Below, one piece after another: positions 18,331 to 19,836 of a DNA stretch of 34,146 bases; the stretch's first letter is position 1, and each line of letters begins with the position of its first letter. Source of the stretch: Spirochaetae bacterium HGW-Spirochaetae-3 (lineage in GTDB: Bacteria > Spirochaetota > Spirochaetia > Treponematales > UBA12059); NCBI GenBank assembly GCA_002839315.1, contig PGXV01000015.1, positions 1 through 34,146 of the forward strand. The letters are read 5' to 3'. Under the pieces are notes generated by a model, which worked only from the letters and a program-made list of their open reading frames with translations, did no database searches and was not told the origin of the DNA. A program made the translations under genes and the position numbers.

Positions 18331-19605
18331 TCAGCGCCAGACGATCCAGACGAAGATGCTCGCGGCCGCCGTGGTGAGTATCGTGAACGGCCCGGCTACC
18401 TTTACCCAGTCGCTGAACTTCAATATCGTTCCCCGCTTCTTGAGTATGCCGACCGCTACGACGTTCGCCGACGCGCCGAACGGAGTAAGGTTGCCGCCTA
18501 TGCACGAGCCTATCAAGAGGCCGAACATATAGAGCTCGGACCGCAGGCCCATGCCGGAAGCCAGTTCGGCGGCTACGGGCAACATCACGATGATATACGG
18601 TACGTTGTCTATGAACCCCGACAGCAGGACGGAGACGGCGATGATGACGATGTAACCGGCCGCTACGCTGTCGCCGACCATGGTCGCCAGGTACGCGGAC
18701 AGGTCTTCGAGGAGGCCCGTCTCTGCGATGGCGCCGACGACGACGAAGATGCCTACGAGGAAGAGGATAGTCTCCCAGTCGAGGCCCTTGACGAGGCGCC
18801 ATACCTCCGAGCGAGGCTCCTTCCTGACGAAGCCGTACCACGCGAGGCCGACGAGGCCGAGCGCGAATACGTAGCCGCCGGACAGTATCGAGAAGCCCTC
18901 GAAGAGGAACGATATGACGGCGAGCCCGCCTATCAGCGCCAGGAGGAGCGCGGTCGGGAACCAGGTCGTTACCGGCTCGGCCGGCAGGTCGAGCCTTTCG
19001 TTCTTCATGCCGCGATAGAAGAAGTAGAAGAAGACGGCGCCGACCAGCATGCCTATCTGTACGGCGAAGAATACCGATAGCTTCCCGTCCTTGATGAAGA
19101 AGTCGTTGAACGAATAGCCGGCGAAGCCGGCGAATATCATGGAGGGCGGATCGCCGACGAGGGTCGCCGTGCCCTGCAGGTTGGACATGACCGCTATGCC
19201 CATGAGGAAGTACCTGACGTCGACCTTCATCTTGTCGCTCAGGGCAAGCGCGATGGGCGCCATGACGAGCAGCGTGGCGACGTTCTCTACGAACGCGGAC
19301 AGGAGCCCCGTCATGATGAGGATGAATACGACGGCCCATCCGAGGTTGGGGGCCCTGACGACGATCTTGTCGGCGAGGTGGGACGGGGCCCTCGAGTAGA
19401 TGAATAGATCCGCGATCACGAGGCTCCCGACGTATATCAGGATCACGTTCCAATTGATCAGCCGGCCGAAGACGACGGCGGGGGTCACGATACCCATGAC
19501 GCCTATGATCAGCGCGGCGCCGAGCGTGAACCACGCTTTCTTGTGCGGGAACGCTATGACGAGACCGTACATGGCGATAGCCAGACTCAGTACAACCCAT
19601 TTCAT
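18331..19605 (-). CDS. ArsB/NhaD/SLC13-family ion transporter under Mn2+ riboswitch control
   Basis: A 424-aa inner-membrane protein with about 11-12 hydrophobic helices and the two-repeat design of the Ion Transporter superfamily. Repeat motifs are VENVATLLVMAP and GTATLVGDPPSMI (about 106-117 and 145-157), and IDNVPYIIVMLP with GGNLTPFGASANVV in the second half. By sequence type it could be an Na+/H+ antiporter, arsenite or anion permease. Its leader contains a yybP-ykoY Mn2+ riboswitch, so I infer Mn2+ export. The start at 19605 has GGAGGAG upstream; an in-frame ATG at 19680 lies inside the terminator hairpin. It is convergent with the EFR1-type gene. Confidence 0.88.
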   Translation of the reverse strand: MKWVVLSLAIAMYGLVIAFPHKKAWFTLGAALIIGVMGIVTPAVVFGRLINWNVILIYVGSLVIADLFIYSRAPSHLADKIVVRAPNLGWAVVFILIMTGLLSAFVENVATLLVMAPIALALSDKMKVDVRYFLMGIAVMSNLQGTATLVGDPPSMIFAGFAGYSFNDFFIKDGKLSVFFAVQIGMLVGAVFFYFFYRGMKNERLDLPAEPVTTWFPTALLLALIGGLAVISFLFEGFSILSGGYVFALGLVGLAWYGFVRKEPRSEVWRLVKGLDWETILFLVGIFVVVGAIAETGLLEDLSAYLATMVGDSVAAGYIVIIAVSVLLSGFIDNVPYIIVMLPVAAELASGMGLRSELYMFGLLIGSCIGGNLTPFGASANVVAVGILKKRGTILKFSDWVKVAGPFTILTTAAASIFVWIVWR

Positions 19606-19639
19606 TACCAGTACTCCTCCGCGGCCGAAAGCCGCATAA

Positions 19640-19692
19640 ACGAAAAAGACCTTTCGCATGGGTCCGTTTATCGGGCGCATGCGAAAGGTCTT
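19640..19692 (-). terminator. Riboswitch expression platform: terminator hairpin
   Basis: On the minus strand AAGACCTTTCGCATG (19692-19678) pairs perfectly over 15 bp with CATGCGAAAGGTCTT (19660-19646), followed by TTTCGTTT. The 5' arm contains the 3' strand of the aptamer P1 helix, so closing P1 would prevent the terminator. A second small hairpin GCGGC/GCCGC lies at 19621-19635, next to the ribosome binding site. Confidence 0.9.
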
Positions 19693-19796
19693 GTTTCCAT
19701 CGGCGCCGATTCCCCGGCTTCGACGGCCGTCCGACCAGGCTAACCCGTTTTAGGGCGCCGGTTGTTGATCCGGACGATGCAACTACTCCCCTCTCG
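19682..19796 (-). ncRNA. yybP-ykoY (Mn2+-sensing) riboswitch aptamer
   Basis: The minus-strand RNA has the hallmark segments in order: GGGGAGUAG (19791-19783), AUCAACAACCGGC, GGUUAGCCUGG and ACAAGACCUUU just before the platform. P1 is CGAGAGG (19796-19790) with CCUUUCG (19688-19682). A CGUCCG/CGGACG stem capped by CCC-UAAAA-GGG carries the conserved internal loop. In the family Mn2+ docks two helices and stabilises P1. Here that would free the transcript from the terminator, so Mn2+ should switch the transporter on. Assignment is by motif, not by covariance search. Confidence 0.9.
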
Positions 19797-19807
19797 ATCC
19801 GATTGGA

Positions 19808-19836
19808 ACTATACGCGGCCGCTACGGCGTGGTCAA
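19808..19836 (-). promoter_or_regulatory. Sigma-70 promoter of the riboswitch-transporter transcript
   Basis: On the minus strand TTGACC (19836-19831), 17 nt, TATAGT (19813-19808). The start should be near 19801, just upstream of the aptamer. The -35 box lies in the last codons of the methyltransferase gene. Confidence 0.8.

Follow-up and report, generated by a model that had tools for sequence, protein, structure and literature searches.

What does a riboswitch-like leader sense, and what does the protein behind it carry, when the gene belongs to a family that has no known role in manganese transport? The question is raised by the window, a 34,146-nucleotide stretch of DNA from Spirochaetae bacterium HGW-Spirochaetae-3 (contig PGXV01000015.1), in which an initial annotation had placed a yybP-ykoY (Mn2+) leader on a transporter of the ArsB/NhaD/SLC13 type. 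This pairing and its spirochaete setting held up, as the protein has such a fold, its leader is yybP-ykoY-like, and the relatives of the locus are Spirochaetota. By its sequence and predicted structure, the leader is well supported as a member of the yybP-ykoY family. The reading that we favour on balance is that of a divergent yybP-ykoY ON switch, presumably for Mn2+, which drives a probable Mn2+ exporter.

Layout and predicted folding of the leader

The elements of the locus are listed below in the order of transcription.

19808-19836, minus strand: sigma-70 promoter TTGACC-17-TATAGT, whose end is 17 nt upstream of GGGGAG
19790-19796, minus strand: P1 5′ strand CGAGAGG, pairing with 19682-19688
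19783-19791, minus strand: L1 5′ strand GGGGAGUAG, with an unpaired linker immediately after it, at the place expected for P2
19791-19783, minus strand: GGGGAGTAG
19757-19776, minus strand: P3 5′ side with L3 (AUCAACA-ACC-GGC), the proposed metal-reading adenosine being 19763
19769-19763, minus strand: ATCAACA
19728-19740, minus strand: P3 3′ side GCC-UGG-UCGGACG, supported by covariation
19697-19726, minus strand: P4 hairpin of five pairs, with compensatory changes in all
19682-19694, minus strand: L1 3′ strand ACAAGA and P1 3′ strand CCUUUCG
19694-19687, minus strand: ACAAGACC
19643-19692, minus strand: intrinsic terminator, a 15-bp perfect stem and U run (hairpin alone -28.5 kcal/mol)
19614-19620, minus strand: Shine-Dalgarno sequence GGAGGAG, preceding the ATG at 19605
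18331-19605, minus strand: CitMHS/ArsB-fold transporter of 424 aa (ATG at 19605, ORF end at 18331)

Promoter, anchors, terminator, Shine-Dalgarno sequence and open reading frame all lie on the minus strand where the initial annotation had put them, and its perfect 15-bp terminator competing with P1 is likewise borne out, with the P1 3′ strand sitting inside the 5′ arm of the stem at 19692-19643. A promoter of this same type and spacing precedes nearly all homologous leaders. The window leader folds with an energy of -89.7 kcal/mol (z = -3.84) and beats all 200 of 200 shuffled sequences, while the three-anchor pattern has one match in the window and none in 100 shuffles. Covariation, folding and the terminators together place helices P1, P3 and P4 in the window leader, along with the overlap between P1 and the expression platform. 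Helix P2 and the four-way junction are absent, and in the predicted fold GUAG is joined to P3 by an unpaired linker alone. The claim that the leader carries all the main yybP-ykoY hallmarks therefore stands for the L1 strands and the L3 anchors and fails for P2. At the far end of the window, positions 1-194 contain a tRNA truncated at the edge and then a bacterial small SRP RNA at 96-194.

During stepwise folding of the window leader, P1 is present at transcript lengths of 133-157 nt, and the terminator replaces it from ∼161 nt. As the polymerase leaves the leader, a divalent metal, most likely Mn2+, would bring L1 (GGGGAGUAG / ACAAGACC) and L3 (UCAACA-ACC) together around itself, with N7 of A19763 reading the ion. 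The metal-docked loops would stabilise P1, which would in turn keep the CCUUUC strand from starting the 15-bp terminator and allow read-through into the transporter gene; the product of this gene would most likely export surplus Mn2+ in exchange for H+ or Na+. A known ON design is of this kind, where Mn2+ stabilises P1.1 against a terminator (PMC11087558). Antitermination by the window leader is very likely.

Recurrence and covariation across spirochaetes

The leader recurs upstream of transporter orthologues with 42-88% protein identity in Spirochaetota, including Treponema parvum ATCC 700773. Eight aligned orthologue leaders were used to build a covariance model, R1, from which L045 was left out because it was misplaced in the MAFFT alignment (L-numbers are locus labels, and G283:C14 below is a genome and contig label). 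Across 393 spirochaete genomes, R1 detected 29 sites, spread over 28 genomes from 14 genera, with the following genes downstream.

Same transporter: 15 sites
Stand-alone OAD_beta: 7 sites (L091, L093, L095, L097, L098, L103, L114)
P-type ATPases: 3 sites (L107, L110, L112)
MntP: 2 sites (L109, L111)
GDT1: 1 site (L113; sequence partly masked, identified by eye)
Contig end: 1 site

Trained on transporter leaders alone, R1 also picks up leaders of genes for MntP, GDT1 and P-type ATPases, which are known Mn exporter families. The OAD_beta protein of L091 scores 491 Pfam bits, and the other six are 75-84% identical to it. OAD_beta is the beta subunit family of Na+-pumping decarboxylases; here the P2-less leader precedes stand-alone genes, in genomes of one order.

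In the alignment of 34 sites, both sides change in 19 of 25 pairs, and the number of double-change cells is 138, where shuffles give 41.6 ± 6 and sliding gives no more than 35. This alignment was fitted to the structure; the shuffles are exceeded in an unadjusted MAFFT alignment of eight sequences too. Nearly all leaders of the R1 class finish with a terminator whose sequence complements the P1 3′ strand. The reading as an ON switch is supported by this covariation, by the formation of P1 before the terminator, and by the overlap of the terminators with P1.

The initial annotation had proposed a survey of spirochaete orthologues for the same leader. The transporter is present in 76 of the 393 genomes and has the leader directly upstream in 17 of these (15 by R1, plus L011 and L141), while in the remaining 59 no leader was detected on it. 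On this count, we reject the leader as a feature common to all orthologues. R1 found no site at orthologue loci without an evident leader, non-spirochaete loci included. At G283:C14:150622-153400, a single leader has two tandem transporter copies behind it. A gene for a family-3 solute-binding protein abuts the transporter at L041 (2219-4311) and at similar loci of rumen Treponema, where the leader was not found.

A covariance check with the Rfam yybP-ykoY model (RF00080), also suggested by the initial annotation, went the other way, with the leader scoring below threshold. The model gave no match in the window leader at the gathering score or at E up to 10, none in the window's whole genome at E ≤ 0.001, and reached its cut-off in 0 of the 393 spirochaete genomes. 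Clear leaders with a four-way junction (L011, L060 and L112) escape it as well, and among control genomes its cut-off is reached in just two of the five where the model finds anything. RF00080 does detect L045, an orthologue leader with P2 (21.1 bits, E = 0.0071), where it aligns GGGGAGUAG and UCAACAUAC. Because the model misses clear members and none of the 393 genomes reaches its cut-off, its failure on the window leader is uninformative. If our reading is right, this riboswitch, among the commonest in bacteria, has a spirochaete branch that the Rfam model overlooks.

Cargo of the transporter and ligand of the leader

The transporter matches Pfam CitMHS at 172.6 bits (cut-off 31.9) and Pfam ArsB at 43.3 bits. 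It is below the cut-offs of NCBIfam DASS, ArsB, MamN and NhaD, with 60.4 bits against 198.6 for the SLC13/DASS model TIGR00785, 56.8 against 457 for the ArsB pump and 29.2 against 577.1 for the NhaD antiporter. An AlphaFold2 model (pLDDT 88.8, pTM 0.86) has its best structural match in ArsB (PDB 10tp; Z = 44.4, RMSD = 2.6 over 409 residues), followed by SLC13 proteins. The shared fold itself shows no substrate. In 28 orthologues, the most conserved stretches are ENVAT, NLQGTATLVGDPPS, FIDNVPY and GGNxTPxGASAN. The first SNT of VcINDY aligns with E107-N108-V109, to which D333-N334-V335 corresponds in the second repeat. Each hairpin thus has an acidic residue (E107 and D333), which would suit a cation better than a dicarboxylate.

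The window's genome also has mntP (L153), and we therefore reject a role of the transporter as stand-in for an absent MntP. The switch motif was not found upstream of 18 mntP genes outside the switched set, L153 among them. Genomes with a switched mntP mostly have a transporter without a detected leader, and none of the 393 genomes has a detected switch on both genes, although P2 forms may be missed. Placement of the switch on either the transporter or mntP is a pattern, not proof, given that P2 forms may escape detection. At L057 (2374-4332), a transporter orthologue follows mntP at a distance of 9 nt, and the aptamer motif was not found upstream of mntP. Several spirochaete mntP leaders (L117-L126) keep P2 and seem to lack P4 and the terminator; the start codon close behind them suggests translational control.

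That the transporter exports Mn2+ is an assignment towards which we lean, supported by P2-bearing leaders on orthologues (L011, L045, L060), the adjacency to mntP at L057, and E107 and D333. It could instead serve another role in Mn2+ stress, such as H+/Na+ balance or anion transport, or act as an importer, behind a switch that does sense Mn2+. Arsenite, Na+/H+ and carboxylate transporters belong to the same family, but acids occupy both repeats at the places where dicarboxylate carriers have SNT. Similarly, while the window's genome keeps mntP, no genome was detected with the switch on both genes; and while a solute-binding protein gene abuts the transporter in rumen treponemes, and TerC, also a yybP-ykoY target, has been assigned a metalation role (PMC10550928), an ON switch of the same class before MntP, GDT1 and P-type ATPases points to efflux. 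We consider this alternative unlikely.

The ligand is approached through the solved aptamers, in which the Mn2+ site is formed by L1 and L3 phosphates and N7 of one adenosine (PMC6754395; PMC9190785). This invariable discriminator is A41 in L. lactis and A48 in X. oryzae (PMC6754395), to which A19763, the last A of UCAACA, corresponds by the sequence motifs of that paper. The window leader carries both strands of yybP-ykoY L1, GGGGAGUAG and C(A/G)AGAC, and the discriminator adenosine of L3 is placed at A19763 by motif alignment. GGGAGTAG is invariant in the leader class, and the E. coli mntP leader shares GGGAGTAG, TCAACA and CGAGAC with it. Over 12 kb around E. coli mntP, the best place for R1 is the mntP leader, with a weak score (12.4 bits, E = 0.39). 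Because the L1 and L3 anchors are common to E. coli mntP and the solved aptamers, and R1 sites precede MntP, GDT1 and P-type ATPases, Mn2+ is the likely ligand of the window leader.

An altered ligand is distinctly unlikely; in that case the variant, which lacks P2 and has a changed L3, would respond to Ca2+, Fe2+ or Na+, and the transporter and OAD_beta would handle the same ion. Variants of yybP for other divalents are expected by authors in the field (PMC7266159), Ca2+ binding is reported for the three-way-junction S. pneumoniae mgtA switch in a review (PMC9495176), and L3 is shortened in the window leader; yet the adenosine that discriminates Mn2+ is retained, MntP and a P-type ATPase also stand behind leaders that lack P2, and leaders with P2 and an L. 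lactis-type L3 (L011 and L060) precede the same transporter. Na+ would fit OAD_beta, a Na+-pump family sometimes under the Na+-I riboswitch (PMC9337991), but a match to the DUF1646 motif was not found in the window leader at E up to 10, in the scan that likewise gave no RF00080 match. An ordinary attenuator or constitutive terminator with a chance resemblance to yybP-ykoY would fit the missing Rfam match, and is highly improbable in view of three family-specific anchors in order, covariation, recurrence before known Mn exporter families and P1-overlapping terminators.

The favoured reading of a Mn2+ ON switch on a Mn2+ exporter is weakened by the missing Rfam match, the absence of P2 and an L3 shorter by one nucleotide, by the weak R1 score on E. 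coli mntP, by the 59 of 76 orthologue genomes without a detected leader, and by mntP in the same genome.

Relation to known systems

The main Mn efflux types are CDF, MntP, UPF0016 and P-type ATPases, with TerC emerging as a further one (PMC13274385, 2026). The ArsB/NhaD-like CitMHS family is absent from this list. The initial annotation had not counted such a permease among the standard genes under this riboswitch. Within open-licence papers, we found none linking yybP-ykoY with ArsB/NhaD-like, OAD_beta or Treponema genes and none linking manganese export with NhaD, and in this literature the ArsB/NhaD-like and OAD_beta targets of the switch appear unreported. The spirochaete leader before a family without known Mn transport suggests unrecognised manganese exporters in that family. 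A wider and tentative reading is that the ArsB/NhaD-like CitMHS clade and stand-alone OAD_beta are both Mn2+ exporters, and that across spirochaetes the P2-less switch controls either of these two, MntP, a P-type ATPase or GDT1. If right, this would add two candidate families to the short list of Mn2+ efflux systems, and its naturally occurring three-way-junction aptamers could be used to study how P2 and the length of L3 affect the choice of metal.

Among solved proteins, the ArsB arsenite efflux protein (PDB 10tp) has the closest fold to the transporter, but it shares 18% identity, the transporter is below the NCBIfam ArsB cut-offs, and the transporter hairpin residues are ENV and DNV. SLC13/DASS carriers such as VcINDY are alike in fold and sequence, whereas their SNT substrate motif is ENV in the transporter and the DASS cut-off is not reached. 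The Na+-I (DUF1646) riboswitch is likewise a cation switch sometimes found before OAD_beta, but has two extended stems (PMC9337991) in place of the window junction; its Rfam model gave no match in the window leader at E up to 10, in a scan that missed RF00080 too.

The solved aptamers have four nucleotides between the discriminator and the resumption of P3, while the window L3 has three; this length varies within the class, with five in L053 and four in the mntP leader L109. L011 and L060 combine P2 with an L. lactis-type L3 (UCA-GGAC and UCA-GCAC), and L045 has P2 with the other L3 type, and these three leaders tie the same transporter to the canonical architecture in other lineages. The yybP-ykoY switch of S. 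pneumoniae mgtA is described as a three-way junction in the same review (PMC9495176, summarising Martin et al., 2019); by this description it resembles the window leader and differs in controlling a P-type ATPase. Since a three-way form is reported there, P2 is treated as not strictly defining, and the window leader, lacking it, is filed as a divergent variant and not as a canonical member. The leader differs from yybP-ykoY (RF00080; L. lactis yoaB, E. coli mntP) in its three-way junction without P2, its L3 shorter by one nucleotide, its place below Rfam detection, and a different transporter family downstream. It is like yybP-ykoY in its GGGGAGUAG and CAAGACC strands, a UCA/ACA-type L3 with the discriminator adenosine, the opposition of P1 and terminator, and exporter genes downstream.
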